Part shown: positions 1,504 to 32,564 of the stretch, piece by piece
Layout: the number at the start of each line of letters is the position of its first letter
Numbering within the stretch: the stretch's first letter is position 1
IMG/VR virus record: IMGVR_UViG_3300032288_001675
Coordinates: 1 to 32,843 of that record
Source: a virus
DNA: 32,843 nucleotides
Strand: one strand, 5' to 3'
Notes under the pieces: generated by a model
Database searches by the model: none
What the model was told of the DNA's origin: nothing
What the model saw: only the letters and a program-made list of their open reading frames with translations
Made by a program: the position numbers and the translations under genes

Positions 1504-1794
1504 CTATCCTGAATATACATTCCTTGTAGGGTCGGTTACTTTAGCAACATCCCCACAAACTAATAAGTCAGTTTCCCTAAATAAGGGTGTATTACCTATA
1601 AATACTCTAGAGCTTCCCTGGCCTGCCGCACTAGGATGGGCACCATTGCCAGGGTGGTCTGGTGCTACCCCATAAATATCTCCGGTCACTACTGCTAGTT
1701 GCCCGCCAATAAAAACTTTGTGTGGGTTAACAGGCTCAGCAGCATGGGTTGCAGTGCTTAAATCACCTTTAATTATAGCGCGGAGGGGTGGCAT
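1504..1794 (-). CDS. PAAR-domain spike-tip protein
   Basis: The protein is 96 residues, the usual size of a stand-alone PAAR protein. It begins with MPPLRAIIKGD, the proline-led opening typical of PAAR domains, and contains repeated short Gly/Pro beta segments (HKVFIGGQLAVVTGD; SRVFIGNTPLFRETDLLVCGD). Histidines at about residues 17, 25, 47 and 53 and Cys80 could supply the buried metal site that such domains use to sharpen the tip. PAAR proteins cap the trimeric gp5/VgrG needle of contractile tails and secretion systems. The likely partner spike is encoded about 24 kb away (25408-26463), so the two would meet during baseplate assembly. The gene overlaps the end of the 996-aa gene by 26 bases and has no strong ribosome-binding site, which suggests translational coupling to it. 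Confidence 0.9.
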   Translation of the reverse strand: MPPLRAIIKGDLSTATHAAEPVNPHKVFIGGQLAVVTGDIYGVAPDHPGNGAHPSAAGQGSSRVFIGNTPLFRETDLLVCGDVAKVTDPTRNVYSG

Positions 1795-4759: not shown

Positions 4760-4760
4760 A

Positions 4761-7331: not shown

Positions 7332-7332
7332 A

Positions 7333-10300
7333 TTAGTTCCACTTCTCTAGGTCAAATGTATTTAGAGATCCTATACCTCTACCTCTTGGTTTTCCTCCAG
7401 AGATATTATTGTCTAGCACTACAGTATCACCACCAGCAAATTCATAATAGGGGTAGTAAATTGCTACTGTCTTAGCTAGACCGGATTTTCCTACAGTATT
7501 ATGTTTAGCATTTGCAAATAAGTTTGCAGCGGACTCATCAAGCAGAGCTCTTATTTCTCTTGGATTTGATACTACAGCAGAAGCGTAATAGAATGCTGAA
7601 GTTGTCACTCCATTCCCGCTTGCAACAAGTATTGATTTATAGAGTCCAGACACAGAGGAATCAATAATTATGTTAGAAGAGAACTGATAGCCTTGAGCAT
7701 AAACTTGTGGTATATATCCAGCCTGAGCCCCAGTCGCTACACCCCAGTTTATGAACGGATCTACAGAGAAATAAAGTCTAAAGGGTCCTTGGTTGGTAGC
7801 AGAGGCATTTCCAAATACGCTTGAAGTGTTAACTCCGTAGTAATCTAGAATTGACAAGCTGCTCGTATCTGGGGTTGAAGAAGGTGCTCCGCTTCCTCCC
7901 CAAGTTCCACTTGGCCCAAAGTAAGGTACAACTCCTGGGTAGTTTCCGCTTACTGAAACATACCTTGCAGCTAACTTTGATGAATCATTAATAATCCATA
8001 CGAATGTCTTTGAGCATAAACCATCAGTAGAGCTTCCATCATATATCACTGATGAAGCATTCCACCAGCCACAGGGGAAGTGTACGTTGTCTACATTTAC
8101 CTTTGATCCATTTAATGCCCTTAGACAAACTCCACCATAAGTCGTGGAGCTAAAGTTATTTGTAGCTGGATTTCCTATGTACCCACCTGCTGTCAGATTA
8201 TAATTTTGTGCTAGGTTATTATTATCTAATACATTATTATTTGTGTATAAACTTAATCCTAGATCATTATTTGGTAATGGTAATTCCGTGTAAAGATTTA
8301 CATCATTTGGATTTGGGTAGAATTGCACACCCCCTCCAGAAGTGTAAAGTTGTAATAAATAAGTTATTTGTGGTAAGTCTGGACCATAGTTTGAAAGAAT
8401 GTCATTGCCAAGAGCTGACCTCCCCCACAAATCATAATAGTGGCCCAGATCCTTCATGGCGATAGTGGATCCATGGTCAGCAACTAAGCAAGCTCTTGTT
8501 GAATGGAATTCAACAGAAGTATGGTTCTTCTTATCACCAAGATTAAATCCACTTATATCTAAAGTTCCGTTTCTTAATCTGTGTGGAGTAATTTCTAAGT
8601 TAGAGTTGTTATCGACAAGAGCATCAACTCCATATTGAGCAACAACAGTTGGGCCTTGAATCTTTATTGTTGAATTCTGATTAGCATAAAGTCCAGCTAA
8701 AGTTTGTTGAAAGTTTACAGAACTAGGCCCAAATAATTTTGTGACATAATCTTTAGTGCCTTGTAATGTTGCTTCTGAGTTATTGACTACTGACAATGCA
8801 CATCCAAAGTAACCTTGATTTGTTGAATTGAAAGAATCTGAATCATTAGTAATAGCTAAACTTATTGCCTTAAACTTTGAGTTAGAGTCAACCATTATGG
8901 AGGGGACAACATTCTCTCTAAGCACACCATCAATAGAGCTAAACGTGAACATCCCAAACGATTGATCACAAACAAATCGTTCATACTTATCTGGCATAGA
9001 AGCCATGTAAGTTGGTTCAAATACAGAATTAACTAATCTCAAATGCGCTCCATTTTGGAAGAAGGACATCTGATGGAATCTGTATGTAGAATTGTTATAG
9101 CCAGTTAAAGTTGGCCTGTAGCCTTCTTTGTTGTAATTAAGCTTAGAGTTTACTAAGTATATTCCTTCTTTTTGGTTATATTTGCAATTAAGTGAGTCAA
9201 TACTGATTGTTGAGTTAACCCCATCTAAACCAACATAGTTTCCATAGATGTTTATTCTTCCACTGTGATCTAAAGTGGAATTCTGAAGCACTACTCCAGC
9301 TTCCGTGTTAAGCTCAGAAATAAAATTGTGGGCGTGGACATATGCAGCTAAAGGGGCTACACCAGCAGGCGGATTAGCTTCAGTTCTTCCACCAAAAATT
9401 CTTGAGTTAACTGCTCTTAAACCAATATCATTTCTTGATAAGCAGAATAACCATGAGGCGGCAGGGACAGCAGAAACACCAATGTAAGAAAAATTGTAAG
9501 TATATAATGCACCACTTATGCTATAGAGATAATCTCTTTCATAAGTTGAGCTTAAATTCAACTCACTGTTAATTAGTTCTATTCCAATACCATAGTTACC
9601 TTGTGACTCTCTATCTAATTTATTGAAAAGTTTAGAAGACCATGTTCTTCCAACTCTGGTGCCGTCAGTATTGAACCCATAGTTTCTATAAGCTATGAAT
9701 CCTCTGGTTAAGGTAACTCTTGAATTGTCTGCATAGAGGCCAGCTTTTCTGCATCTAGCAACAGAACAGTTCTCCAGTACAACTACAGACTTTCTGATAT
9801 CTATTCCATTCTCTGTTCCATTGTAATTTCCACCACCATCTACAGTAAAGTTTCTTATATAGATTGGGCCATTACAATTATAAATTTTTATTTGATCTAG
9901 TCTATTACCATAAACTATTGGAACCGTTGGCCTAGTTAAACTATCTTCTTTCCAAAAAATCTCACTTCTAGAGAGATCATTCTCTTTTATAGTAGAGGCA
10001 TCATACCCAGTAATTTCATATGTATCTAAGTTTGATTCGTAGTTAGTAAACGCCACCACAGCACTGGGTTGGTCCCATCGAGTAAATGGCTGAACTACAT
10101 TGTTTCTCGCAGCCAGAGCAGCAGTTAATCTTTGATTTATACCTTGATATGGCTTGCGGCAGAAAACAGTTAAGTTGTTAGTAATTCTTGAGTCATAGCC
10201 AGAAACAATAGTTGTACCACTCATAACTGGGATATTTAAAGAAAGTATTTTTGCTTTCTTTAAATTAGTTGGAACTGATGGAACTTCAACAGTTGGTATA

Positions 10301-10815
10301 TTATCATTCAACGTTGAGTTATCATACAGAATAGATGAAGCTAAACCGTAAGCACCTCCAGCACTTTTCTCTTTATAAAATTCATAGAGATTAGTAACTG
10401 TATCCATTTTAGCAAAGTTTCTATTGATTATTTCAATAGAGCCTTTTGGTCCAAATGTTCTGTTTGATAAAGCTAGAGTCCCAAGGTTTCCAAAGCTTCC
10501 TACTTCAATAATGTAAGGAGCATTAATAACTTCTGGTAGTGAGTTTAAACAAGCACTTAAGGTTGTAAATATGTTTGTGTTGCACCCTGATGTAGCAGTA
10601 GCAGATACCACTAAAGCAAACCCATTAATTGATGAAGTCGGGTGCCCTAATCTCTCCCATAGTAATTGAGTTCTTTCATCTAGATCATATATTGGGAGAT
10701 TATCCTGTTCCCAGTTGTAAAAAGAACTAGTATCAAACTTGGTTACGTTAGGGGTCCAGCAACCATAAATCTTGTTAGAGCCTACGCTTGTATAAATATC
10801 ACTTACGTTTAGCAT
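7333..10815 (-). CDS. Parallel beta-helix tailspike-like protein
   Basis: The protein is 1160 residues. Residues about 33-57 carry FYNWEQDNLPIYDLDERTQL, the same anchor pattern (DN-I/L-P-x2-x-L-x-E) as the next protein downstream. From about residue 305 to 780 there are many short turns of a right-handed beta-helix of the pectate-lyase type, with alternating hydrophobic strands and Asn/Gly/Ser turns, for example IYIRNFTVDGGGN, VVVLENCSVARC, AGLYADNSRVTL and GIYLVNSKLNYN. Such folds in phage tails often bind or cleave surface polysaccharide. I cannot identify catalytic acids, so depolymerase activity is not claimed. The C-terminal 350 residues are Ser/Gly/Asn-rich, probably a trimerisation and receptor-binding region. 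The gene is in the block B operon, 4 bases after the 206-aa gene. Confidence 0.83.
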   Translation of the reverse strand: MLNVSDIYTSVGSNKIYGCWTPNVTKFDTSSFYNWEQDNLPIYDLDERTQLLWERLGHPTSSINGFALVVSATATSGCNTNIFTTLSACLNSLPEVINAPYIIEVGSFGNLGTLALSNRTFGPKGSIEIINRNFAKMDTVTNLYEFYKEKSAGGAYGLASSILYDNSTLNDNIPTVEVPSVPTNLKKAKILSLNIPVMSGTTIVSGYDSRITNNLTVFCRKPYQGINQRLTAALAARNNVVQPFTRWDQPSAVVAFTNYESNLDTYEITGYDASTIKENDLSRSEIFWKEDSLTRPTVPIVYGNRLDQIKIYNCNGPIYIRNFTVDGGGNYNGTENGIDIRKSVVVLENCSVARCRKAGLYADNSRVTLTRGFIAYRNYGFNTDGTRVGRTWSSKLFNKLDRESQGNYGIGIELINSELNLSSTYERDYLYSISGALYTYNFSYIGVSAVPAASWLFCLSRNDIGLRAVNSRIFGGRTEANPPAGVAPLAAYVHAHNFISELNTEAGVVLQNSTLDHSGRINIYGNYVGLDGVNSTISIDSLNCKYNQKEGIYLVNSKLNYNKEGYRPTLTGYNNSTYRFHQMSFFQNGAHLRLVNSVFEPTYMASMPDKYERFVCDQSFGMFTFSSIDGVLRENVVPSIMVDSNSKFKAISLAITNDSDSFNSTNQGYFGCALSVVNNSEATLQGTKDYVTKLFGPSSVNFQQTLAGLYANQNSTIKIQGPTVVAQYGVDALVDNNSNLEITPHRLRNGTLDISGFNLGDKKNHTSVEFHSTRACLVADHGSTIAMKDLGHYYDLWGRSALGNDILSNYGPDLPQITYLLQLYTSGGGVQFYPNPNDVNLYTELPLPNNDLGLSLYTNNNVLDNNNLAQNYNLTAGGYIGNPATNNFSSTTYGGVCLRALNGSKVNVDNVHFPCGWWNASSVIYDGSSTDGLCSKTFVWIINDSSKLAARYVSVSGNYPGVVPYFGPSGTWGGSGAPSSTPDTSSLSILDYYGVNTSSVFGNASATNQGPFRLYFSVDPFINWGVATGAQAGYIPQVYAQGYQFSSNIIIDSSVSGLYKSILVASGNGVTTSAFYYASAVVSNPREIRALLDESAANLFANAKHNTVGKSGLAKTVAIYYPYYEFAGGDTVVLDNNISGGKPRGRGIGSLNTFDLEKWN

Positions 10816-15500: not shown

Positions 15501-16461
15501 ATCCTATTAAATCTGCTAAGAATGGCAATAAGTTGTCGGGGCACTCTTGAATATTGTAAAGAGTTTTTAGCCTTTCAGTATTATCGCTCATATCGTAAGC
15601 TGCTAAAGACAACATTCTCAACAGCTTAGTGAAAGGCCCATTAGTAACCTTTGTCTCCTCTAAAACCCCATTTTGAACAGCTAAATCAAATCTATCGTAA
15701 ACAGTGAGGTCACTTCTATCTGAGTACAATGGGGAATAAATAATATCAATCCAAGTATTTAATTTATCTAATTGCTGCGTTCCACTAGTAAACTTTCCTG
15801 TAGCACTTAGGAACGTGTCTGGGATGTAATCATTAAACCCATTCTTAAACAAGTATTCTGATAAGCCTTTTAAGCAGTCATTTAGATATATTGTTTCGCC
15901 CTTATAAGACTTTTCTGCTAGTAAATTACAAACAAATGTTGACGGAGAATAGTTTACTCCACTGGTATTTAAAAAGTATAGCCAGGATATATTTTCTATT
16001 AGGTAGTCGTGCATTGAGGATGCACTATCACCCTGATTAAAATAAGAAGATGGCTTGTTTAAAATTATTGAGGGTAAAAGAGTACTGCTGATATATGTTT
16101 TAAATTCGTCTTCGGTTTTGAATTGTTTATAAGCTGTGTTAACTCTATCTAAGATAGTTAATTCAAAGTCTTCTGGCGTAATCTTTGTAAGCTCATTTTG
16201 TTTTATAAAAAATGTACAAATGCCAGAAAGAGTATTTATCCCATAATAAACAGATCCAGGTATTGAGCTTATGTTAAGTATTGACGATACATTATCACAA
16301 AAACTAATATGAGAATTTATTATCTGGTCTTTTAGATCTACTTCCGTTCCAAATGCTTGATTGTCATCATCTAATAAGTAACTAGGTATGATATACTGTA
16401 AAGCCTTGTAATAGGTAGGCTTAAAAAATTTCTGATCAGTGATGTAATTTTTAACAGACAT
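12574..16461 (-). CDS. 7: Baseplate wedge protein, gp7-like with tail-protein-I domain
   Basis: The protein is 1295 residues, somewhat longer than T4 gp7 (1032). Residues about 285-350 fit the phage tail protein I (P2 gpI) pattern: LPFLADLIGWKLFG, then DRWRLQLRNAIEVYKKAGT and NSLQFALNTLFP. In contractile tails this protein pairs with the baseplate J protein to form the wedge, and gp6 then gp7 is the usual order; here it directly follows the gp6-like gene with a 1-base TAATG overlap. After the I-like domain are a helical region (to about residue 520) and a long beta-rich C-terminal part with several probable sandwich domains, ending in a segment that could contact the peripheral baseplate. Domain recognition is good; equating the whole protein with gp7 is inference from order and size. 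Confidence 0.82.
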   Translation of the reverse strand: MSVKNYITDQKFFKPTYYKALQYIIPSYLLDDDNQAFGTEVDLKDQIINSHISFCDNVSSILNISSIPGSVYYGINTLSGICTFFIKQNELTKITPEDFELTILDRVNTAYKQFKTEDEFKTYISSTLLPSIILNKPSSYFNQGDSASSMHDYLIENISWLYFLNTSGVNYSPSTFVCNLLAEKSYKGETIYLNDCLKGLSEYLFKNGFNDYIPDTFLSATGKFTSGTQQLDKLNTWIDIIYSPLYSDRSDLTVYDRFDLAVQNGVLEETKVTNGPFTKLLRMLSLAAYDMSDNTERLKTLYNIQECPDNLLPFLADLIGWKLFGSNPDRWRLQLRNAIEVYKKAGTKNSLQFALNTLFPKSIFNLEPRINELWESYVPFLIFYSLLTESQYFKSNITWTRELAQRMLVEGYAEDDIRENAKIATDRIIYEIYLTHKNKFNIPNQSSEFFYRGRSYNVPPFEEYPYYANVELDQEMILTIIDRLVCFGVRRDFAEQVGEYIENNTILVDDIPRASSWLFFTSGYNQPPNLSDIISEADSRKLEFVPLWSGKSSHFTAILDASSFDFSKKETTYDSDDAIVLASQVVNDFAPAHAIPIIALSLSVTDTGNSQDQRLHMVGYDKIEPLEQSTIANYQSSGLNVSSYKRSTGTGNIMFPGPIQSTQDPLLTNASVVTNVPRNTVRRRNFEKLMPMNGFYNRTGFNMPVSFDPSASLSGIYLGYIPSSNSFQTISDYKNLPEVYSICLNTSSILYGYPVSSTVKCRGHENLTYKDYYTDRGQLNDIYYVMHSINERKKFVQASSVITSTGYTADENWKDNITSYVNSATEASGWFPISLYDYYNFSFGKDMHLLYQTYTKEFNRHILNDDILTRDGANIISHTYGPLIYNHDLNYIANNQYVVSSLSSVVEIKNSNVLSIPGTTVANSPSTLYFNPSTPDMITSGIISGIDLINVSGASPRNSFTVVKVPISEKPDSASEYMFDRTFLKVNSLTSYPRMRVDITRTIQDNNYPINKNFLLPNHLFKFSINGLVCSNDALTLGGRTIGIWIHTKQEQGKIWSYAPNDLNLQYCGNKLYGKWEQHSRNLQIEEIMEKYVYKYTFPTDDRTRIDISGQTRRLRCIDIVTRAAYSISPLLTLEESDFSTFEFLFDTYNNVTETDASYHGSFGEVHRKDQQYIVDIFFLPDNVNGLNNFFLVDKVSLTDMTLNKMSRLPLFKEGECGEYRMEVTKEQLKSVFRFFNDISGKNVQVGLASRDATETSGVMQTQGGSRLDYRLNTSWLGGTYVGTGKTLDTVEVVV

Positions 16462-18062
16462 TAGATGAAGTTGCTATTTATTGTTAAGTTGTTTAACTGA
16501 ATTATTTCATTAAAGTTAGACTTTATAGCCTCTGGAGTATTCTCTACGAATGCATATCTAATCTCTATGAGCGACAATAACCATTTGGTTAGATCTTGAG
16601 CTATGAATGGCTCACCAAATTCCATATTGTCTACGTTAAAGTATTCTAGTATTTTGTTCTTTACTTTTGAAACTAGTGAGCTTTCAAACTTTCTGTATTT
16701 CTCATCAAAGGTTACAGAAACAACTAAATCCAAAGTTCTTATTAAGCCATCAACTACTACTGGCTCATCAGTTAGCATCTTCTTTTCCTCAATTGCCTGA
16801 AGAAGTTGGAGCTTGTACTCTGGGGTGGCCCTTCTTAGTTGAAGGTTTGAAGCTTTTTCTAGGACAAACAAATCTATGATGTTTGCAGAAGAATAAGCTC
16901 TTCTAACAACAGCGTTTGCTTTTCCAGTTGAACCATAGTTTGAAATAAAACTGTTTACAAATGATTTGTAATCAGCTAGGGTTACTAATCTATCCTGTCT
17001 TCTGAATATTAAAGGAGCGTATCTTTTAGCGTGCTCAACTGTCTCTGCGTCTGATCCGCCAGTAGCGATGCTAACATTTTCTAGTACCCCATCTACGCTT
17101 TCGGTAATAACACCATTAGACATACTAAGCGTTAGTGGTACGTTGATTACCTCTTCAGCTATATTACCTCTAGTGCCTCCCCCAACTCTGTAAGTTACAG
17201 TATATGTATCTCCGACAGCAGGGGACAAACCTATCGTTGAATCGCCGAATAAAATTGTGGCTTTGAAATTATCATCTGTAGCTATTTCAAAAATTTTATC
17301 GTCAGAGCCGGAAGCAAAATAAACATTTTCTTCTTCCTTGTAAACTCCATTAGTGTCTACGGAACCCTCAATAAAAACTTGAGCACTTCTTTCGACATAT
17401 GGAGCCTGAGTTAGCTCTATACTCTTTATAACTTCTGGGGACAAAAATTGACCAGTTTCTATTACTAACGCGCCTTCCATTATTACTGCGTCAGTAATTA
17501 TTATTACGCCATCTTGAGCACTGACGCTAAAAACTAAATTAGTTGTATTGCTGTCTAAATCAACCGTTCCATTTGGCTGTAGCTTGTAAACTGTGTAGCT
17601 TAGAGGTGCGTTATCCTCAGGAGAAGTTATTGTAAAAGTTCTGTTCTCAGCCGATATCGTTATGGTGTTTGGGGATGGTAAAGATTCAGTGGTTTGTAAA
17701 GCTATTCTAGCATTAGCAGCGGCAGAGATAGGACCTTTCATTCTAATCCCAATTAGCTCTAGCAACTTTTTTACACTCTTTCTATCCTTGGCTGTTCTTA
17801 TAAAATTTTCATTAGCTAGATAGTCCGCTTTAATTGAGTTTATATGCCCAACGGCAGCCATCATTTCAATTAATAAAGTTCCAAAATCTGATTCACTAAA
17901 ATTATTGTAATCTAGAGGGAAAGTAGCTTTGGCATAATTTATTAAGGCTTCCCTAAGGGTATTAAAATCAGCCGCAGAATAATCTATCAGCTTCTCTTTT
18001 TCTCTTAAATCCTCTGGGATATACTTGAGGTAGTCAGAGGTTACTGTTCCTGAAAATGTCAT
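16461..18062 (-). CDS. 6: Baseplate wedge protein, gp6/baseplate J family
   Basis: The protein is 533 residues. The N-terminal 110 residues carry DFGTLLIEMMAAVGHINSIK and DYLANENFIRTAKDRKSVKK, typical of the gp6/J helical region that follows the wedge core. The middle is beta-rich and includes VGGGTRGNIAEEVINVPL, and then VSIATGGSDAETVEHAKRYA and FRRQDRLVTLADYKSFV, which are hallmark J-family segments. Wedge rings of this protein hold the baseplate together around the hub and rearrange at contraction. It follows the gp25 gene with a 4-base ATGA overlap and precedes the gp7-like gene, the canonical order gp25-gp6(J)-gp7(I). T4 gp6 is 660 residues, so this is a shorter form. Confidence 0.92.
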   Translation of the reverse strand: MTFSGTVTSDYLKYIPEDLREKEKLIDYSAADFNTLREALINYAKATFPLDYNNFSESDFGTLLIEMMAAVGHINSIKADYLANENFIRTAKDRKSVKKLLELIGIRMKGPISAAANARIALQTTESLPSPNTITISAENRTFTITSPEDNAPLSYTVYKLQPNGTVDLDSNTTNLVFSVSAQDGVIIITDAVIMEGALVIETGQFLSPEVIKSIELTQAPYVERSAQVFIEGSVDTNGVYKEEENVYFASGSDDKIFEIATDDNFKATILFGDSTIGLSPAVGDTYTVTYRVGGGTRGNIAEEVINVPLTLSMSNGVITESVDGVLENVSIATGGSDAETVEHAKRYAPLIFRRQDRLVTLADYKSFVNSFISNYGSTGKANAVVRRAYSSANIIDLFVLEKASNLQLRRATPEYKLQLLQAIEEKKMLTDEPVVVDGLIRTLDLVVSVTFDEKYRKFESSLVSKVKNKILEYFNVDNMEFGEPFIAQDLTKWLLSLIEIRYAFVENTPEAIKSNFNEIIQLNNLTINSNFI

Positions 18063-18584: not shown

Positions 18585-20654
18585 ATGGCTAAAATTTCTG
18601 ATAATCTGAGCTTAAAAAGAAGTAGAGAGCCGAATCATTCTTTTATGAATTCAGAAGATATGTTCTTAAAAAGCTCCAAGTCAGCTTCTGCTTCAATAAG
18701 TGAGATAGGGCCATGTCTATACAAATATGATTCAAAATGCTTAACAACTAAATTTCAAGCATCATCTATAAACACAAATAACTTAACTTATAATCAAGAG
18801 AGAAGACCGTTTTTTGAAGATCAGTATGCTTGGCTAACAAATCAATACGATCCATCTACAACTCAATACCCAATCTACTATGGATCTGGAACATTAGCGT
18901 CTAATGAATACCCATATGCTGGTTTGCTTTCGACTGGCTTGGGGTATGCTATGGATATAAGTGCAGCAATATTAAATGGAAATCATGGCAGGAAAATAGA
19001 TGAATTTCAATCCAATATGTTTGGTAATGTGAGAAGACAATTTAAATTAAATACTTTTGAATTATCTAAAAATCTTAATGGCGCAATAGATTGGTGGAAT
19101 ACAAGACTTAATGCTAGTGATAGTTTAGAAGATGGAATTTTCATATCTCATAGGGGTACTGGCTGGGGAAGACAAATGTTTTTAGACCCAACTTTTTATG
19201 AGGGTTATGGATTAAACGCTGATAACGGATTGTTATCAAGATTATTCGGCGTACCCCCTGGAGCTACTGACGGAATCCCCATGAGTGCCACAATCCCACC
19301 TATCCCAAAAACATATCATAATATTCTCCCTGGGGGTGCTGGCGGCAACGATGCTATTTATAATTATGGTGGAGTTTTTAATTATCATACTTCTTCACAT
19401 TTGTTTATCATTGACGGACAAAATGCAATACCAATATACACAAAAGATTATGAAGAGGATGGTAAATACCATGTAATTCAAAGTTGTAGAAATGTTGAAT
19501 TCTTACAATCTGTTTCAGAAGGAGATTATTTCTCCCTAAATCCAAACGCAGCGTTTGAACTTGCTACTAATTTTGATGTTGATGCATCAGCAGATACAAA
19601 AACATATTCTACTTTTAAGAATAGTTTAGCTAGTGGAGACCTTGCTACTAATTTAAATTCAGCAGAGAGAGGTGGTAGTTATGATATTCTTGCTTTCAAT
19701 AAAAGCACAATATCATTTCAAAAGTTAGTAATGGATTTCTTAGGGGATGGAATACACAGAGTTGTAAATGCATTCTATCAACCATTTAGATACTATAAAG
19801 ACCAATACTATAATTATTCTTCTCTTACAGGACAATCAGTATCTGCAATGCTTGCAGCAGTCCCAGATACAAATATGCAGAGATTCTTAATTGGTGGAGG
19901 GTTTTGGATGGATTGTAGATTTGATAAAGTTTACACCTACTCCCCCCTAAGCAATCAGTTAATTGATTCTGATAATGTTTTTGTAAGTGGAATACAACTT
20001 TCTGCTTTAGGAAATGGAATCACAATTAATATGATTTATCCAGGAGGTTACCTGGATGAGAATAGTTATGTAAATTACAAATTTGAATATCTTAGTGGTG
20101 TAAATCCGCTGGGGGTGAGCAGTATTGCACAAAAATTCTTCAAAGGTAGTCCATACTATTTAAGTTCAAATTTATTATTTACAATACAAGAAAGAACTCC
20201 CAGTTGCCCTGGAGGTCTGCCTTCAATATGCGTAGCTCATGGATATTTACTAAATGACAAGGTATTCTCTGATCCATTTACAAAAGGATATAAAAAAGGT
20301 TATACCTTAAATTTAGTCTATAATCAGATAATAACAAGTGGAACTCCCGGTACAGCTAATTATGGAAGAGGATATGAATTATTCTTTAATCCAATATTCT
20401 CATCGACAGAGATAATTAACAGTCAATGGGGTATGAATGTAGTTGGTATGCAAGGAAATTTAGCATTCTGCGAGAAAGGATGGACTGCCTGTGAAGTTTT
20501 TGTTATAGTTGGAAAAGATAAAGAAGAAGTAATTGAAAAAATTCAATACCTAGTAAACAACTACAATATAGGAGAATTTATAGATCCTAAAGCAGAAATT
20601 CCTGACATAATTTATAATTATACCATGCCGTTTAAGGTTGGTAATGTATTCTAA
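18585..20654 (+). CDS. Large virion-like protein of unknown family, on the opposite strand
   Basis: The protein is 689 residues, rich in Asn, Ser, Tyr and Gly, and is the only complete plus-strand gene here. I do not recognise it. There is no signal peptide or membrane segment. The N-terminal 45 residues are Ser/Lys-rich and may be disordered; the rest is beta-rich, with many aromatic-Gly turns (HRGTGWGRQM, PYAGLLSTGLGYAMD, RFLIGGGFWMDCRF). Residues about 625-665 look like an alpha/beta unit (CEVFVIVGKDKEEVIEKIQY). AGGA lies about 8 bases before the ATG. It has its own late-promoter-like octamer and converges on the GH-like gene with overlapping stop codons. Composition resembles the neighbours, so recent acquisition is not obvious. 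A surface-exposed structural or receptor-binding role is a guess from position and composition. Confidence 0.72.
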   Translation: MAKISDNLSLKRSREPNHSFMNSEDMFLKSSKSASASISEIGPCLYKYDSKCLTTKFQASSINTNNLTYNQERRPFFEDQYAWLTNQYDPSTTQYPIYYGSGTLASNEYPYAGLLSTGLGYAMDISAAILNGNHGRKIDEFQSNMFGNVRRQFKLNTFELSKNLNGAIDWWNTRLNASDSLEDGIFISHRGTGWGRQMFLDPTFYEGYGLNADNGLLSRLFGVPPGATDGIPMSATIPPIPKTYHNILPGGAGGNDAIYNYGGVFNYHTSSHLFIIDGQNAIPIYTKDYEEDGKYHVIQSCRNVEFLQSVSEGDYFSLNPNAAFELATNFDVDASADTKTYSTFKNSLASGDLATNLNSAERGGSYDILAFNKSTISFQKLVMDFLGDGIHRVVNAFYQPFRYYKDQYYNYSSLTGQSVSAMLAAVPDTNMQRFLIGGGFWMDCRFDKVYTYSPLSNQLIDSDNVFVSGIQLSALGNGITINMIYPGGYLDENSYVNYKFEYLSGVNPLGVSSIAQKFFKGSPYYLSSNLLFTIQERTPSCPGGLPSICVAHGYLLNDKVFSDPFTKGYKKGYTLNLVYNQIITSGTPGTANYGRGYELFFNPIFSSTEIINSQWGMNVVGMQGNLAFCEKGWTACEVFVIVGKDKEEVIEKIQYLVNNYNIGEFIDPKAEIPDIIYNYTMPFKVGNVF

Positions 20655-22699
20655 ATTATTGACAAGTAATTAGATACTTTAGATTCGCCTAAACTATTCA
20701 ATAGATAATTTCTAAGATTATTATTGAAGTTTACATATGCATTGTAGAGTGCTGTTACCCAAGATTGTAACTTTGTATCATAAGAAGCCCAATTTAGTAA
20801 TGATAATATATCAGCGGTTGGAGATATAGAACCCACTAGTGCAGGGTCATAAATACAGCATCCACTTGTTCCTCCATTTGGCCTTATCCAAAAACAAATT
20901 GGTTTTTGAAGTAAGATAGGAGAATCCCTAAATGGCCCATCAGTAACAGCTAAGCTGGATAGATACCTAGGCGTCCCAACAAATGGGCTCTCATTATAGT
21001 CAGTGCTTTTTGTTATTGATCTTGGCATAAAAGCAGAGGCTGCGATAAACAAAGTCTCTTGAAGAGATGACAATATAAAGCTTGATGCATAATTTGGCGT
21101 ATTGTAATAATTATGACCTTTATACATATTTAAATCTTCTGTTAACTTTATTAACTTAGTAATTCTTTTATAGCAAGTTAACTCTCTAGTTAAATCTCCA
21201 TCAATATTAGCTAAAAGAGAATTGTAAATCTCTCCAGATAAGGATTGAATAGTGTCAAATAATCCAGAGATAGTGTAGTCGCTCCCGTCCCCTATAACCC
21301 CCCACCCACTTGATTTAGAGCTTGAAAAAGAATCTATTGGTGAATACCCCACAGAGAGAGATTTATATTCTGGAATAATCCTAGAAGACTCATAAACAGT
21401 TTCCCAAGCGTTATGGCCTTGCTCATCAAAATTGTTGTATCTAGCAAATGATGACCCATTGTAATTTTGTTCATCTTCTAAAATACTAAATTCTAATTTT
21501 TCAGGAATTGATTTAGATACTGAATACTTTCCAATGAATCCATCTGAAATAGTTTTTTCTTTTATAATACTTATATCCTTACTTTCTCTACAGTCACCAT
21601 CATCAAACAGTATTCCTTTTTTACTATTTAAAGGTTTTCTAGTGAATGACCTATCAACTAACCCTTCAATGACAATCCCAATATTAAAATCTTTAGAGAA
21701 TTTAAAAAGTTCATAAGGTGTTCCAATATGGTCAACAAACGAATCAATGATCATTATCGGCTTCCCAGTTTTTTGGGAAAAATCTTTTAAGGTTATATAA
21801 TTATTTATAAAACCTAAAAAAGTGAAATTTGAATTAATATGACAAACAAAATCAACAAGAGGTGTGAGTTGTGTTATAACCCCTGAGTTGTAGATATCTG
21901 GGTAGGTTGTGCCTGAGATATATGCGCTTGAAGCATTTATGTTTTTAGCACTGAATGTAGTTTTTTGTCTTGAGTTTTTAATAGAGTTTACTTTGTTTAT
22001 AGCCGACACTACAAATTGATACCCATAAGGTTCAGTTGGTAATATATTAACATCGTGCATCACTTCCCAAGCCAGAGTTCCAAAAAATTTTCCTGCGGTG
22101 TTTACCATGTCAGTCACATAAGCATCCCCACTGACTACCATTGAAGATGGATGTCTTGTAGGCATACCATTGTATACTCCCCAGTAATCCCAGTTATAAC
22201 TAAGATCATTTGAATTAATATTTGGGCATCTTTGCCACCTTTTAATCCCCCATGATACTGCCTCATAGATTGTAGATGGGTCAAAGTAACCTAATGAATG
22301 ATTAGTTGAACTTGTATCACCATCTGTATACCCATCAAATAAAACCCATTGAGTATACATTTTTTTATTGTTACATATTCTAGCTAAAGATTCGACATGG
22401 CTTAAATACTTATCTTTAAAATTAGCCCAACAATACATATCGCCATAAATTCTTACAAGATTTACACCAATATCTTTTAAGTATTGTATCTGCTCGTCAG
22501 CTTCGCTTGGGTCATAATATAACCAATTAGCTGTCTTGGTAGAGCCAGCAAAAGTCATTATGTTAGTATTTAAATTGTCTGTGTAAGGCATAAATGGTGC
22601 CACCAAACGAGGCATTTGACCAGATTGATTCCATTCATCTGTATGAACTTTATTGAATGTCGCCCCTCTACAATTAACAAAATATTTGGTGTCGCTCAT
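20651..22699 (-). CDS. Glycoside-hydrolase-like TIM-barrel protein, probably inactive
   Basis: The protein is 682 residues. The N-terminal 350 residues follow the course of a GH5-type (beta/alpha)8 barrel: a FVNCRGATFN opening, EADEQIQYLKDIGVNLVRIY (about residues 66-85), KKMYTQWVLFDGYTDG, FFGTLAWEVMHDVN (206-218), LVDFVCHINSNFTF (281-294), KPIMIIDSFVDHIG (313-326) and FNIGIVIEGLVDRS. In active GH5 enzymes the fourth strand ends in an Asn-Glu pair and the seventh in Glu; here these positions read His215-Asp216 and Asp319. The barrel may therefore bind carbohydrate without cleaving it. The C-terminal 300 residues are unrecognised and include a helix-rich end. It follows the LamG-like gene by 3 bases with GAG before its ATG, so both probably serve host-surface binding at the baseplate. 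The fold call is by motif pattern. Confidence 0.68.
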   Translation of the reverse strand: MSDTKYFVNCRGATFNKVHTDEWNQSGQMPRLVAPFMPYTDNLNTNIMTFAGSTKTANWLYYDPSEADEQIQYLKDIGVNLVRIYGDMYCWANFKDKYLSHVESLARICNNKKMYTQWVLFDGYTDGDTSSTNHSLGYFDPSTIYEAVSWGIKRWQRCPNINSNDLSYNWDYWGVYNGMPTRHPSSMVVSGDAYVTDMVNTAGKFFGTLAWEVMHDVNILPTEPYGYQFVVSAINKVNSIKNSRQKTTFSAKNINASSAYISGTTYPDIYNSGVITQLTPLVDFVCHINSNFTFLGFINNYITLKDFSQKTGKPIMIIDSFVDHIGTPYELFKFSKDFNIGIVIEGLVDRSFTRKPLNSKKGILFDDGDCRESKDISIIKEKTISDGFIGKYSVSKSIPEKLEFSILEDEQNYNGSSFARYNNFDEQGHNAWETVYESSRIIPEYKSLSVGYSPIDSFSSSKSSGWGVIGDGSDYTISGLFDTIQSLSGEIYNSLLANIDGDLTRELTCYKRITKLIKLTEDLNMYKGHNYYNTPNYASSFILSSLQETLFIAASAFMPRSITKSTDYNESPFVGTPRYLSSLAVTDGPFRDSPILLQKPICFWIRPNGGTSGCCIYDPALVGSISPTADILSLLNWASYDTKLQSWVTALYNAYVNFNNNLRNYLLNSLGESKVSNYLSII

Positions 22700-22702
22700 A
22701 AA

Positions 22703-25408
22703 TTACTCGCTAATAATTGGTTCCCATTCCAATGCTGGTATGTAAATGTTCTTAAAAAATTCCTTTGAAGCGTTAAAGTTTTTTAATACTTGATCTTCTG
22801 ACAGTGGTCTAGAATAAAGCTTAATACCACCTAAGAAACCTTTAAGTCCACTAATTATCCCTCCATACTGCCCGCCCATGAAGTTTCCTGTTTGCATACC
22901 ATCGGTATATCCACCTCCAATTATCCAAGGTGTAAAGTAGCTTCCTAGCTTTGGACCACTTCTTAGTTGGGTGGCATCGACAGTTGCCATAGAAGTTGGA
23001 TTATACTCAAAAGTATTCGGTCTTTTAATAGATGGAATTTTTAAGGTTTCTAGCTTTGGGTCAATACCAAAAACATCCTTATAACTAGAAGTTATTAATA
23101 CTTGACCATCACAATAGAAAGATATTTTATTTTTTATTGGATCGAATGTTAAAGTTATTTGACAGAACTCATTATTGCAAGCCGATAATGAGACACCATT
23201 CACTGATTGATTTACTGGGAATCTCATCCCATACCAAATGCTGCTATTTTGGTAGCAATTGTCAGTAATGTCTTTGAACTTGTTTATGAATCCAACACTG
23301 GAAGAATCATATGATTGTGTTGGTGCCAACACCAGACAAGTATCATCTATGTCATTCTCAGAATCTATGTTTGAAGGATATAAATCTTTTGTTAGTCTTC
23401 TGTCTCTTGAGAATCCAAAAATTAAGCCTCTGCAAACATCAGTAGAATCATCCTTCTGTAGATTTAAAATATCTTGTTGTTTTTGGGCTCCTAGAGATAG
23501 TCCTGTATTCTCATTAGCAAGAATTAATCTGTAGAGACCTGAAGCGGTGTAGTCTGCATTAAATCCTAATCCTTCGTTGTCTAAGTGGGGTGCATACACC
23601 CAAGCCTCAAATGTTGCTCCATTCTTGTTGTAAAGTAAATCTTGGAATTCTTTCTTTTGTGGTAATCTTATATAACTTCCAACTCCAGTTGGGTTTGTGG
23701 GATCAACACTGAGATGCTTCGTAATGCCCTCCAGGTAGGCTATGCCGACTCCTTTATTGAAGACCCTATTCGTCGTAGGAGCAACAATTTGAGCGTTTAA
23801 ACCAGCCCCTAAGAAAGAAGAGTTCTTGAGTTTAAATGTTGTGGAGGAAGGAGGTGCAATCTCAAAAGACAGCAAGTTATAAAGAGCAATAAGTCCTTCT
23901 GTTTCTACAGAAGTATTTATTGATAACTTTGAGTTTCTTGTGCCGGAAGGATTTGAGACTATTGATCCAAGACCTATGTCATTTAATAATAAGTGGTCTA
24001 AGGATATATCTTCTTCTTGCTTTACCTGCTCAACAAAAGTTATTTCAATAGGGAGTATTACACCAGAAACATCGTCTTGATCTATTACAAGTCTTCTTTG
24101 CTTCTCCAAATCCATTTTAAAGTTTATGCCTTGTAGATACGAAAAGTCATTAATTGGAATCTCTCCTGCTCTATACAAGGCTCCCTTGCCGTAAGAAATA
24201 GGAACTTTTACTGCCAACTCTATTTGCTTCTTTCTCTTGTTTATCTTTTCGAGATAGTGAGCAGACTCAGACAGCATAACTTGTTGAAGGTTATTGATAA
24301 TTGCGCTTCCGAGTTCTTGCTCTATGGCAAGCTGAATTTCTCCAGAAACATCAAAAACTTTTCTATTTCTTTGTCCTATCAGGCTTTGTAGCAATTCATC
24401 CTTTTCATAGAATTCTCTCATGGTTATAGAGTCATCTATTATTCTGTCATCGAATATGCTATCAATATAATATTTTGCGTCATCCAGGGTAAAGTCTTTT
24501 CCTCTTCCTCCTAGATTTGGATCTTGATCTAAACGCCAGATTTGATTTTTTTCTATGCTATCAATCTTTTGCTGAATATCGAAAAGTACTGGGAATGTTC
24601 CACTGGTTTGAGAATCGTAGTAAAGTCCATCAATAGACAGCAAGAACTTCCCGTTGATTGATACTGGTGGGCCATAGGATAGTCTGAGCAATTCCTTCTT
24701 TCTTCCTGGGGGCGAGAACCTTGTTAGGCTTGGGAAAGAATCTAAGACCTCATCGCTGTATTGAGGCTCTAAGCTGGGGTCTGCTGCTCTTCTTGCTAGC
24801 TCTCTGTCTATTGATTCCTTGAAAGCTAAAAGACTGTTTAAAAGTGTGGTTGCCTCATCTAAAGCTCTCATGTCGCTAGCCATTAGGCCACGAACATACT
24901 CATCATAACCGTCTTCTGTGTAAGTGTCTCTTATTATGTCTTGCGAGTCTCTTTTTATATTGCCTAGTATTCCAAGCTGTCTCAAGCAATCGACTAGTCT
25001 TTCTATGTTTGCAGCAATAGATTGAATATTATTATAAAGAGTTGTAGCAAATGCAGTTGCCGCACCAATAAATTCAGCTATCTCCGTCAGGAAAGATCCA
25101 GGCTCAGTTCCATACTTAAACCATCTGCAAACATAAACTTCTTCTCCGTCCTCATTTGTAACTACGTCAATACCAAATAACCAGAGAATGTTCTTTTTTA
25201 TTCTTTTTATTAAATTATTTGCTTTGTCTATGCCATCCTGAGTTGCTGCACTCATAGCCCCTAATATATTCCCAGGGAGCAAAGAAAGTAATTCTTCCGT
25301 TAAATCTGTTAGGCAAGAAGGTAGTCCAAAAGATCCTCCTAAGGACTGAATAGGACTGTCGCCATTATTGACAGATTGAACAAAATTAGATGTGTCGAAC
25401 TTGACCAT
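22703..25408 (-). CDS. Baseplate-associated protein with C-terminal LamG/ConA-like lectin domain
   Basis: The protein is 901 residues. Residues about 1-420 are mostly helical with probable coiled coil (for example RALDEATTLLNSLLAFKESI). Residues about 420-560 form a beta-rich connector. From about 590 to 885 there is a concanavalin-A-like/LamG_3 jelly roll, with ATFEAWVYAPHLDNEG, CQITLTFDPIKNKISFYCDG, a final IGGGYTDGMQTGNF and GGIKLYSRPLSEDQVLKNFN, the usual closing strand of such domains. LamG-like domains bind glycans or proteins. It starts through a TAATG overlap with the spike gene, so it is translated with it, and lies before the GH-like gene. This suggests a baseplate adhesin linked to the hub. 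The lectin fold is well supported; its ligand is unknown. Confidence 0.8.
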   Translation of the reverse strand: MVKFDTSNFVQSVNNGDSPIQSLGGSFGLPSCLTDLTEELLSLLPGNILGAMSAATQDGIDKANNLIKRIKKNILWLFGIDVVTNEDGEEVYVCRWFKYGTEPGSFLTEIAEFIGAATAFATTLYNNIQSIAANIERLVDCLRQLGILGNIKRDSQDIIRDTYTEDGYDEYVRGLMASDMRALDEATTLLNSLLAFKESIDRELARRAADPSLEPQYSDEVLDSFPSLTRFSPPGRKKELLRLSYGPPVSINGKFLLSIDGLYYDSQTSGTFPVLFDIQQKIDSIEKNQIWRLDQDPNLGGRGKDFTLDDAKYYIDSIFDDRIIDDSITMREFYEKDELLQSLIGQRNRKVFDVSGEIQLAIEQELGSAIINNLQQVMLSESAHYLEKINKRKKQIELAVKVPISYGKGALYRAGEIPINDFSYLQGINFKMDLEKQRRLVIDQDDVSGVILPIEITFVEQVKQEEDISLDHLLLNDIGLGSIVSNPSGTRNSKLSINTSVETEGLIALYNLLSFEIAPPSSTTFKLKNSSFLGAGLNAQIVAPTTNRVFNKGVGIAYLEGITKHLSVDPTNPTGVGSYIRLPQKKEFQDLLYNKNGATFEAWVYAPHLDNEGLGFNADYTASGLYRLILANENTGLSLGAQKQQDILNLQKDDSTDVCRGLIFGFSRDRRLTKDLYPSNIDSENDIDDTCLVLAPTQSYDSSSVGFINKFKDITDNCYQNSSIWYGMRFPVNQSVNGVSLSACNNEFCQITLTFDPIKNKISFYCDGQVLITSSYKDVFGIDPKLETLKIPSIKRPNTFEYNPTSMATVDATQLRSGPKLGSYFTPWIIGGGYTDGMQTGNFMGGQYGGIISGLKGFLGGIKLYSRPLSEDQVLKNFNASKEFFKNIYIPALEWEPIISE

Positions 25409-26463
25409 TAGTCTAGATTATCAGTTAAAGTTGGGTCTGGGGTAATCGGATTTGGGCTTCCAGCAAATCCAGAATTTAAATAGACACCCGCATTTCCTTC
25501 TATTTCCGTAGTGGCATTGCTAGTTATATTTGTTATTCCATTACTATACATAAATGTTCCGGCATCCGAATTCATATTAATTAGGGGTGCATCCATATTT
25601 ATAGATACTCCAGCTTTTAAGTTAATTATTGGGGCCTGAACACTTACAGTCCCAGTTTCGTCTATCCTAACCCTTACTAACTTTGTGGTAATAAATATGT
25701 TGCTAGTTACACCTCTGACAGAGATGTTAACATCTCTGTTTTGGCTAATAATATTAACGTCCCCACCGTCAACTGCTGGGTTTAATACGTTGGTATTAAA
25801 AAGGTCACTAGAGTAATTAATAATATCAATATGACCACCATTACCAACGACTAATTGAGCCTTCCCCTGGTGTGACACACAAGATATCGAGTTCTGAGCA
25901 GTTATACTAATTGATCTGGTTTCATTAGAAGAGTTGCCACCAGAACTTATTGTTATGCCGTCATCGTGCTCATTAAACAAGGCTATAGAATCATTTTTTA
26001 ATGAGTCACTAAGAAGAAGCATTTTACCCTTAGTTGATTTAAGGGCTACCGTGTCGATTATGTTGTCTGATTTAAAAATGTGATTCATTTTTAAGCCAGC
26101 ACCAAATTGATTTTCAAAAGTAACTCTTCTTCCTAAAGTTGACTCATCTGGGTATACTTGCTTTTTGTTTGGAAAAATATCTTTTGGTTGTTTAACACTG
26201 TTTGATTCAGCCTTTTCAATAACTGTAGACAAGTAATAATACTTCTCATCCGTATCCCTAAAAACTAAAACAACACTTCCTGGGTCTGGTAAAGCAAGAA
26301 CTCCTCCATATCCTACAGAATAAAAAGGGCTTGTGTAAGTAACTACAACATCCTCTGTCAGTCCTTCTGGCATTGTTATTTGAACATAGAATTGACCATC
26401 CACAGGTCTCTTGTATGTCTGTATGCCCCCAGGGCCTAAAACTTTTCCTTTATAAATGTTCAT
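25408..26463 (-). CDS. Baseplate central spike, gp5/VgrG-like, without lysozyme domain
   Basis: The protein is 351 residues. Residues 1-85 resemble the OB-fold of gp5/gpV/VgrG spikes (GQFYVQITMPEGL, YGGVLALPDPGSVVLVFRDT, KYYYLSTV). After a linker, residues about 160-335 show short alternating hydrophobic repeats with Asn/Gly turns (VRVRIDETGTVSVQAPIINL, SINMDAPLINMN, ITNITSNATTEIEG), consistent with the triple-stranded beta-helix stalk. T4 gp5 carries a lysozyme domain between these parts; there is no room or motif for it here. The trimer would sit on the gp27-like hub encoded just upstream (ATGA overlap) and carry the PAAR tip. A TATAAATA octamer lies 29 bases upstream of its ATG, inside the hub gene. 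Confidence 0.88.
   Translation of the reverse strand: MNIYKGKVLGPGGIQTYKRPVDGQFYVQITMPEGLTEDVVVTYTSPFYSVGYGGVLALPDPGSVVLVFRDTDEKYYYLSTVIEKAESNSVKQPKDIFPNKKQVYPDESTLGRRVTFENQFGAGLKMNHIFKSDNIIDTVALKSTKGKMLLLSDSLKNDSIALFNEHDDGITISSGGNSSNETRSISITAQNSISCVSHQGKAQLVVGNGGHIDIINYSSDLFNTNVLNPAVDGGDVNIISQNRDVNISVRGVTSNIFITTKLVRVRIDETGTVSVQAPIINLKAGVSINMDAPLINMNSDAGTFMYSNGITNITSNATTEIEGNAGVYLNSGFAGSPNPITPDPTLTDNLD
25718..25739. repeat. Perfect 22-bp palindrome inside the spike gene
   Basis: The 11-base arm ACAGAGATGTT is followed immediately by its exact reverse complement, centred on GTTAAC. It falls in codons for about residues 242-249 (NRDVNISVR). The match is complete over 22 bases and stops at the next pair. 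With my rough base composition, about 0.03 such palindromes would be expected by chance in a window of this size, so it stands out. Confidence 0.85.
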
Positions 26464-28517
26464 TTGTTCTCTGTGCCTTGCTTCAACTCATTATTTATAG
26501 TAGATGGAAATATTACTTCTCCAGTATCTGGTTTTATTTCTGGATTAACATATCCAAATTGCCTTTGTAAAGAAAACTCTGAATAACAATCTGTTTTTGT
26601 GATTACATGACGAAATGAAAGTAAATTATAGTATCCAGTTAAGAATGAATTATCGTCAAAAGGTTTAACATTAAAAACATTATTATTATCGCCAACTAAA
26701 AAACAAAGTAATCCAAGAACTCCAAGATTTGATATTTTAAAATAGGGTAGAGTTCTTATTGACATTAATATAACACTCTTTCTCATTACATCATTTATTT
26801 CTTTTGCAGAAATTTCTGCTGACAGAGTAGAAAAATATTTTATTACAACTCCAACATCTTGTTTTGTCATACCCTTTAATATAGCATCTAAATCTACATT
26901 TTTATCAAACAAAGGGCTAGATGAGTATATGCGTTTAACTTTAGATATAATTTCTTCTCTAATATTTCGTTCATTTATATTTTGTTGATTTACACCAACA
27001 TTTTGAAGATCTTGTGTATTTTTATTATTATTTAAATCTTTTAGACTTTCATATTGTTTTAATAGTTTAATTAAGTCTGGCGTGTTTACATAAGTTGTAA
27101 CTGTCTCTGGTTTAAATCCAATTCCCTTAAGAAGACCAAAGTACCCTGGTTCGTTCTTAATGTTTAAAGAAATTATGTTTCCATTTTTATTTGAAAAATT
27201 AAAAACAGGAATTGCGTTAGGTGTAGAATTTAATTTGTTTGCATCTCTTCTAAAGTCATCTTCATTTACAGCTATCAAATCATTATACTCATTTTCATAC
27301 TTTTCATTTTTATACTTAGCACTGTCGAAAGTAGTTGCAATACAATTAGTTTCTGTTCTAAAATTTCTATCTGGGTATAAAAATTTTTTTAATAACCTAG
27401 AATCCCCAAAAACTATAGTTGGTTTAAGTTCATCTATAAATTTATATTTTTTCCACAACTCTAATAATTTGTAGTTGTTTTCTATTACAACTCTATTTTG
27501 AAACCCAACTGTCGTTGATCCCTTTGCAGAAAATAACTCATTTAATTTAGAACTTAAAGTGTTGATTGGATTGAAAGGATCTGGGACTGTAACATTTGGA
27601 TTAACTTCACAAACTAATTTTAATTCTATTTCTTTGGGAGTTTCTATATTTTTTGTCTCTATTTGATGAAGTGTGAATGGGTAAGTGACTAAATTTTTTA
27701 TTACTTCTTCTTGATTTTTCTTTGATAAAACAACATTTGCTTTGACTCCTAGTTCTTTTAGCGCAGCATCGTCTGCTTTACCTTTAAAAAAATATTCAAG
27801 ACTCTTCACAGAATAATTAGGTTCAACATCAGGAAGAATACAAATAGTTTGCATCTCAGAAATAGAAAATAGGTACTTATTTACTAAATTTTGTAATGCG
27901 TAATTTACTTCATTAAGTTTTTTAAGATTTTCTATTTTTATTATTTGTGATTGTGAAATAGTTACTCTTTGTTTAATTGCAGTTCCGCTGTTTATTCTAG
28001 ATTCATATCCTACGCTTCTCATATATGAATTTCTAAGAAGCATTCCTTCCGCTGGGACAAACTCTAAGGTTATTATTTTAACACCCGATTCTGTCAATAT
28101 AAAATTAGCAGTCTTCAAACTGCAAATGAAGATTCCTCCCCACTCTTGTAAATTGTCTCCAATTCCAAAAGAAATAAATATTGGTTTACTAGAATATACC
28201 CCTTCTTCGTTCGTTGTGTTTCTGTAAATCTCATTCTCTATAGTATTCTGTAAATAATACTTTTCAAAAGGAAGATTAGATTCTAAAAACTTTAAAGTTA
28301 AAAAAGATTGATCTTTTTGTTTATCTGATCCAAACTGATAAGAAAGTTCTAGTAGATTACTATTCTGTTTTCCAGGGTAATGGATAAAAGACATTCCCTT
28401 TTCTTGAGTGCTAAGTTGATCTATAAAATTAGATACTTTTTTAGCTAATGAAAATTTATCAGCTACTTCTCTTGAAGCAGTTAAAAAAATGTTTGCTGTA
28501 AAGACTTTAGAACTCAT
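26460..28517 (-). CDS. Baseplate hub protein, gp27-like
   Basis: The protein is 685 residues, much longer than T4 gp27 (391). Order and pattern support a hub: it directly precedes the OB-fold spike gene (ATGA overlap) and follows the gp53-like gene (ATGA overlap). Residues about 100-190 contain beta segments of the tube-like hub fold (GGIFICSLKTANFILTESGV, KIITLEFVPAEGMLLRNSYM). The C-terminus has FLTGYYNLLSFRHVITKTDC, a form I associate with gp27/gpD hubs. The middle, about residues 260-560, is Lys/Asn/Glu-rich and mainly helical and probably accounts for the extra length. The hub trimer adapts the sixfold tube to the threefold spike. No enzymatic motif is visible. Fold assignment is moderately secure; the role of the insertion is unknown. 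Confidence 0.78.
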   Translation of the reverse strand: MSSKVFTANIFLTASREVADKFSLAKKVSNFIDQLSTQEKGMSFIHYPGKQNSNLLELSYQFGSDKQKDQSFLTLKFLESNLPFEKYYLQNTIENEIYRNTTNEEGVYSSKPIFISFGIGDNLQEWGGIFICSLKTANFILTESGVKIITLEFVPAEGMLLRNSYMRSVGYESRINSGTAIKQRVTISQSQIIKIENLKKLNEVNYALQNLVNKYLFSISEMQTICILPDVEPNYSVKSLEYFFKGKADDAALKELGVKANVVLSKKNQEEVIKNLVTYPFTLHQIETKNIETPKEIELKLVCEVNPNVTVPDPFNPINTLSSKLNELFSAKGSTTVGFQNRVVIENNYKLLELWKKYKFIDELKPTIVFGDSRLLKKFLYPDRNFRTETNCIATTFDSAKYKNEKYENEYNDLIAVNEDDFRRDANKLNSTPNAIPVFNFSNKNGNIISLNIKNEPGYFGLLKGIGFKPETVTTYVNTPDLIKLLKQYESLKDLNNNKNTQDLQNVGVNQQNINERNIREEIISKVKRIYSSSPLFDKNVDLDAILKGMTKQDVGVVIKYFSTLSAEISAKEINDVMRKSVILMSIRTLPYFKISNLGVLGLLCFLVGDNNNVFNVKPFDDNSFLTGYYNLLSFRHVITKTDCYSEFSLQRQFGYVNPEIKPDTGEVIFPSTINNELKQGTENK
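26492..26499 (-). promoter_or_regulatory. Possible internal late promoter before the spike gene
   Basis: The minus strand reads TATAAATA, an exact match to the T4 late octamer, inside the 3' end of the hub gene and 29 bases before the spike ATG. This spacing is close to that of the candidate at 1454-1461. Several exact octamers are expected by chance in 33 kb of AT-rich DNA, so this is tentative. Confidence 0.33.
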
Positions 28518-32546: not shown

Positions 32547-32564
32547 TATTTTTTTAAAAAAATA
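32547..32564. repeat. T7A7-centred 18-bp palindrome between divergent genes
   Basis: TA, seven T, seven A and TA form a perfect palindrome midway between the two divergent start codons. Runs of A and T can bend DNA or melt easily and may be part of a shared control region. Such low-complexity palindromes arise readily in AT-rich DNA. Confidence 0.5.

Follow-up and report, generated by a model that had tools for sequence, protein, structure and literature searches.

A perfect 22-bp palindrome within a phage tail-spike gene, probably a coincidence of codon choice

The DNA analyzed here (the window) is the whole stretch of 32,843 nucleotides at positions 1 to 32,843 of the IMG/VR virus record IMGVR_UViG_3300032288_001675. 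A perfect 22-bp palindrome lies at positions 25718 to 25739, inside the gene for a 351-amino-acid central spike protein of the gp5/VgrG type (25408 to 26463, minus strand). The spike gene belongs to a long block of minus-strand genes, which also includes gp25-like and gp6-like baseplate wedge proteins and a PAAR-like protein. The last of these is small (1504 to 1794) and matched phrog_281 with an E value of 2.2e-08; its match to the Pfam family PAAR (E value of 3.3e-05) was below the curated cutoff. It is encoded approximately 24 kb from the spike gene and is possibly the spike tip.

The preliminary description had placed the palindrome in a spike coding sequence, and this was borne out by the family profile, with Foldseek matches of a low-confidence model in agreement. 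When the spike family profile (alignment A1, with 15 relatives out of 22 loci having a spike match) was compared with the PDB, it matched 9gtr_q (E value of 9.3e-09), 8gra_I (6.6e-07), and 7aef_q (3.8e-06). By this profile similarity to solved spikes, the protein was assigned to the gp5/VgrG type. The structure model, which bears on the trimeric OB-fold and beta-helix architecture of such spikes, was of low to modest confidence (mean pLDDT of 64.2 and pTM of 0.37). In a Foldseek comparison it had 24 matches with an E value of ≤0.001, all listed as spikes or baseplates of injection systems, VgrG proteins, pyocins, or phages, with TM-scores to the query length of approximately 0.2 to 0.3. At an E value of ≤0.01, the Pfam family Phage_base_V was found in 2 of the 16 family members and DUF2345 in 6 of the 16. 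The likeness to the central spikes of contractile injection systems (PDB 9gtr, 8gra, and 7aef) consists of the family profile and the fold matches, whereas the window protein is a divergent member that by itself reached no Pfam family at an E value of 0.01.

The palindrome, ACAGAGATGTTAACATCTCTGT, is its own reverse complement with a spacer of 0, exactly as first described. No other perfect spacer-free palindrome in the window is as long; the runner-up (32547 to 32564) has arms of 9. On the minus strand it encodes NRDVNISV, residues 242 to 249 of the spike, and it is placed approximately 720 bases after the gene start. These residues directly precede the better-modeled C-terminal region of the spike (residues 251 to 330, block pLDDT of 74 to 87). 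The earlier suggestion that they fit a beta-helix repeat was sustained only in part: the residues align with residues of relatives, but in the model, positions 242 to 249 are not part of any strand.

Spacer-free palindromes with arms of at least 11 are expected 0.019 times per 32,843 bases from the base composition, 0.017 to 0.027 times per window under Markov models of order 1 to 3 (300 simulations each), and 0.022 times per window when the proteins of 21 ORFs are held fixed. For this codon-preserving expectation, 21 of the 26 listed ORFs were used, and the 5 that overlap larger opposite-strand genes were left out. Given the range across the models, the value of about 0.03 per window in the preliminary description was a fair estimate. 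The 22-bp palindrome is therefore nominally rare, yet it is the most extreme member of a group that was picked after looking. When spacers of 0 to 8 were allowed, perfect inverted repeats with arms of at least 10 numbered 3 in the window, the palindrome included, versus 0.49 expected. Two of them, the palindrome and the repeat at 10234 to 10265, had arms of at least 11, versus 0.12 expected, and at least 2 were obtained in 1 of 120 simulations. This excess is small, and it is a result against pure chance.

Perfect inverted repeats, defined by arms of at least 10 and a spacer of up to 8, have been surveyed in 118,019 genomes (PMC13155455). In that survey, the repeats lie mostly between genes and near gene starts and ends and are more common than in shuffled controls. 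Viruses had a mean of 1.93 inverted-repeat bp per kb, and 48.57% of the 67,654 viruses had none (PMC13155455). The palindrome fits the definition given in the survey and, unlike the majority of the repeats described there, is intragenic. The 3 repeats of the window amount to 66 arm bases, or approximately 2.0 per kb, which is near the 1.93 of the survey if spacers, which it may count differently, are set aside.

The frequency of palindromes was also determined in related loci. In 54 loci (L002 to L055; 699,333 bases), which include some near-identical contigs, 3 spacer-free palindromes with arms of at least 9 were found versus 4.3 expected, 1 with arms of at least 10 versus 1.15 expected, and 0 with arms of at least 11 versus 0.31 expected. 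A less redundant count over 655,550 bases of 98 loci, cut in 50-base blocks that can split a palindrome, gave 3 with arms of at least 9 versus 4.1 expected. When spacers of 0 to 8 were allowed, the 54 loci had 5 repeats with arms of at least 10, and 3 of these were one repeat in the near-identical loci L025 to L027. The phage group does not favor spacer-free palindromes. The palindrome has an expectation of 0.02 per window but was chosen afterwards, and the related loci are at the chance level; it is thus read as a coincidence.

The protein sequence offers a basis for the symmetry. The motif DVNI, coded by GAT GTT AAC ATC, is self-complementary, and in NRDVNISV complementary codons are available for the residue pairs N and V, R and S, D and I, and V and N. 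From the protein alone and the codon usage of the phage, 6 to 7 of 11 pairs are most likely at NRDVNISV, and all 11 have a probability of 0.00079. With G-U pairs allowed, the mean rises to 8.5 of 11, and all 11 have a probability of 0.049. A perfect 22-mer is possible with the codons in use at only 23 of 10,520 codon-boundary sites, among which the NRDVNISV stretch ranks 3rd in the chance of having one. When the spike gene was shuffled synonymously, a palindrome at 25718 to 25739 appeared in 14 of 20,000 shuffles. The protein sequence singles out this site for symmetry without raising the total expectation of the window. The Ile codon in the palindrome, ATC, is the rarest of the three (89 of 782), which counts against an account by ordinary codons. 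For comparison within the same gene, a second DVNI motif (residues 235 to 238; 25750 to 25761, minus strand) is coded by GACGTTAATATT, which is not a perfect palindrome.

At the mRNA level, folding predictions give the palindrome a stem of 9 bp capped by a UUAA loop. Such a stem-loop might function as an RNase processing site or as a translation pause before the beta-helix stalk, an explanation that agrees with the stable hairpin predicted and with its site just ahead of the better-modeled C-terminal region, but that we consider very unlikely. The 62-nt fold around the palindrome had a z score of -3.71, and none of 200 shuffles folded as well, but any palindrome folds well; the 82-nt fold had a z score of -2.01, with 8 of 200 shuffles folding as well. 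Against a function, among 6,557 windows of 60 nt on the same strand, 21 other stretches that do not overlap had a lower predicted energy. No Rfam match at the gathering threshold was obtained for the whole window, and a tRNA scan gave nothing supporting a tRNA. Of the hairpin before the stalk-coding part claimed earlier, the stem was borne out as a prediction, whereas a selected RNA function was unsupported.

The relatives bear on the same question. Altogether, 98 loci were gathered via the gp6-like gene and spike alignments, some being one contig fetched twice. A spike match was present in 66 of the 98, and merging identical proteins left 41 distinct relatives, which include some near-identical phages or partial copies, such as L031; L018 and L021 share one protein with different starts. 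The spikes of the relatives are approximately 22 to 34% identical to that of the window. At the aligned 22 bases, none of the 41 had a perfect palindrome. The mean was 4.27 of 11 pairs (largest, 8) versus 3.02 at shifted positions, and with G-U pairs allowed, it was 5.85 versus 4.90; the slightly higher pairing at the aligned site is a point against the reading as a coincidence. In Watson-Crick pairs, 40 of the 41 had only 2 to 6 of 11, which speaks against a functional stem-loop, and L004 had 8. With G-U pairs allowed, 38 relatives had 4 to 7 pairs, one had 8, and two had 9.

The motif DVNI is kept in 4 of the 41 relatives (L004, L087, L088, and L090), and all four differ synonymously from the window, a further point against a functional stem-loop. 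AAC and ATC are used in none of the four; Asn is coded by AAT, and Ile is coded by ATA or ATT. In RNA, G-U wobble is still possible for AAT opposite GTT and for ATT opposite GAT. These relatives pair at 8, 6, 6, and 4 of 11 positions by Watson-Crick pairs and at 9, 9, 8, and 7 with G-U pairs. L087 and L088 have identical residues at the site (NSDVNIAV) and 3 synonymous differences. As a check, the preliminary description had proposed looking for synonymous conservation within the palindrome; the available relatives, approximately 22 to 34% identical, show synonymous change inside it instead, the kind of outcome that the description had named as refuting.

L004 ranks second among the relatives by score and, at 32%, is closer than the other 14 relatives of alignment A1; it deserves separate consideration. 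Its 8 of 11 pairs and the apparent swap between the arms, from AGA..TCT to TCT..AGA, resemble a compensatory double change and favor a functional stem-loop. However, given its own protein, at least 8 pairs have a probability of 0.055, and the 9 of 11 with G-U pairs have a probability of 0.26. In 63 nt of L004 RNA, the DVNI stretch is predicted to pair with a neighboring NVNI stretch instead. In 34 nt around the site, only the outer 4 hairpin pairs form, and the fold is no better than shuffles (z score of -0.10; 78 of 200 fold as well). The AGA/TCT swap was thus discounted as evidence of compensatory evolution: the pairing has a probability of 0.055 (0.26 with G-U pairs), L004 is one of 41 relatives examined, and its RNA is predicted to fold otherwise in 63 nt. 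In general, the 41 relatives (approximately 22 to 34% identical) did not show the compensatory pairing of a conserved cis-acting RNA element.

Closer relatives were sought as well. Single-protein queries with the spike and two neighbor genes found none in viral_contigs, and the spike query found none in genome_contigs or the phages collection. L002 and L003, the nearest by gp6 (73% and 70%), had no spike match, and no spike relative above approximately 34% identity was found. Since the relatives are only approximately 22 to 34% identical, the synonymous test is coarse and blind to recent lineage-specific selection. For the same lack of relatives above approximately 34%, a lineage-specific element is still conceivable: a stem-loop of the mRNA in the nearest kin, kept by codon swaps (AGA..TCT to TCT..AGA in L004), would set the timing of cleavage or of translation where the spike passes into its beta-helical stalk. 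We regard this version as highly doubtful.

Some dyad targets are about 22 bp in size. The two-fold symmetry of the palindrome is perfect across 22 bp, as would suit an operator, a recombination (inversion) site, or a nuclease target, and the preliminary description had suggested a dyad binding or cleavage site. This suggestion found no support. The 22-mer occurs once in the window even when up to 3 mismatches are allowed, and its 11-mer half-site, with up to 1 mismatch, occurs only as its own two arms; as the window is a fragment, a partner elsewhere in the phage is conceivable. The exact 22-mer had no match in viral_contigs or genome_contigs. An occurrence elsewhere of the 22-mer or its half, the other check proposed at the outset, was accordingly found neither in the window nor, for the exact 22-mer, in these collections. 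In addition, the site is intragenic, far past the gene start, and promoter-like matches in 25000 to 27000 were at the level of shuffles (8 versus 8.3). A DNA dyad with a function is therefore most improbable. An inversion site and a 22-bp endonuclease target were each considered and were unsupported, with no repeated site in the window.

On the plus strand, the stem is followed by TTT, as it might be in a terminator for antisense transcripts. However, the T run is short, and a terminator scan of 25000 to 27000 did not list the palindrome but listed 2 others. Moreover, the single larger plus-strand gene ends at 20654, 5 kb off, which leaves an antisense terminator with almost no probability. 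An artifact of assembly or amplification must also be weighed, as chimeric joints give rise to inverted sequences. The reading frame is open across the palindrome and the residues on both sides of it align with those of relatives, both of which argue against a fold-back chimera, so this origin is extremely improbable.

Taken together, codon choice in an ordinary tail-spike gene very probably produced the palindrome by coincidence, a coincidence eased by the protein sequence, and we infer that the palindrome has no function. The C-terminal part of the spike uses motifs such as DVNI, in which D codons can complement I codons, and V codons N codons, across the central GTT/AAC. The flanking N-R and S-V codons happen to complement too, making 22 bases alike on both strands. 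The mRNA may form a short stem-loop there, with no sign of use or selection.

Palindromes in coding sequence have been reported elsewhere. The mitochondrial genes of Nematomorpha have numerous coding palindromes of up to 284 bp, both arms of which encode conserved protein regions (PMC6649704). The likeness lies in perfect inverted repeats within coding sequence, with the protein kept, whereas here there is a single 22-bp case at the chance level. In itself, the palindrome is of little importance. However, self-complementary peptide motifs, such as DVNI coded as GAT GTT AAC ATC, raise the odds of coding palindromes at particular places. Palindromes at such places therefore need to be weighed against the protein sequence as well as the base composition.

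Several other features of the window were noted. An AT-rich perfect inverted repeat, ATTTAAAGAAAG, lies at 10234 to 10265 within the gene for a 1160-amino-acid protein (7333 to 10815); its arms of 12, with a spacer of 8, are longer than those of the palindrome at 25718 to 25739. Five large proteins (996, 856, 1160, 682, and 901 amino acids), encoded at 1769 to 10815 and 20651 to 25408, had no above-cutoff Pfam match and no PHROG match at an E value of 0.01. For the gp6-like wedge gene (16461 to 18062), 54 IMG/VR relatives were found, 49 of which were 59 to 73% identical in the best segment. In the phage collection, 152 records matched it, all at less than 60%, and the best ranked was LR756511.1, a 595-kb uncultured phage record (26.9%). 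The spike diverges far more than the gp6-like protein; in L004, the gp6-like protein is 64% identical and the spike approximately 32%.

Among the 21 ORFs taken as genes, only one is on the plus strand, an ORF of 689 amino acids at 18585 to 20654. Its product had no PHROG match at an E value of 0.01, no PDB match at an E value of 0.1, and one Pfam match below the cutoff. The ORF is placed between the gene for the 682-amino-acid protein and the gp25-like gene. In the ORF list of L004, a 707-amino-acid gene directly adjoins the gene at the gp25 position, and the gene at 18585 to 20654 may therefore be an insertion here.
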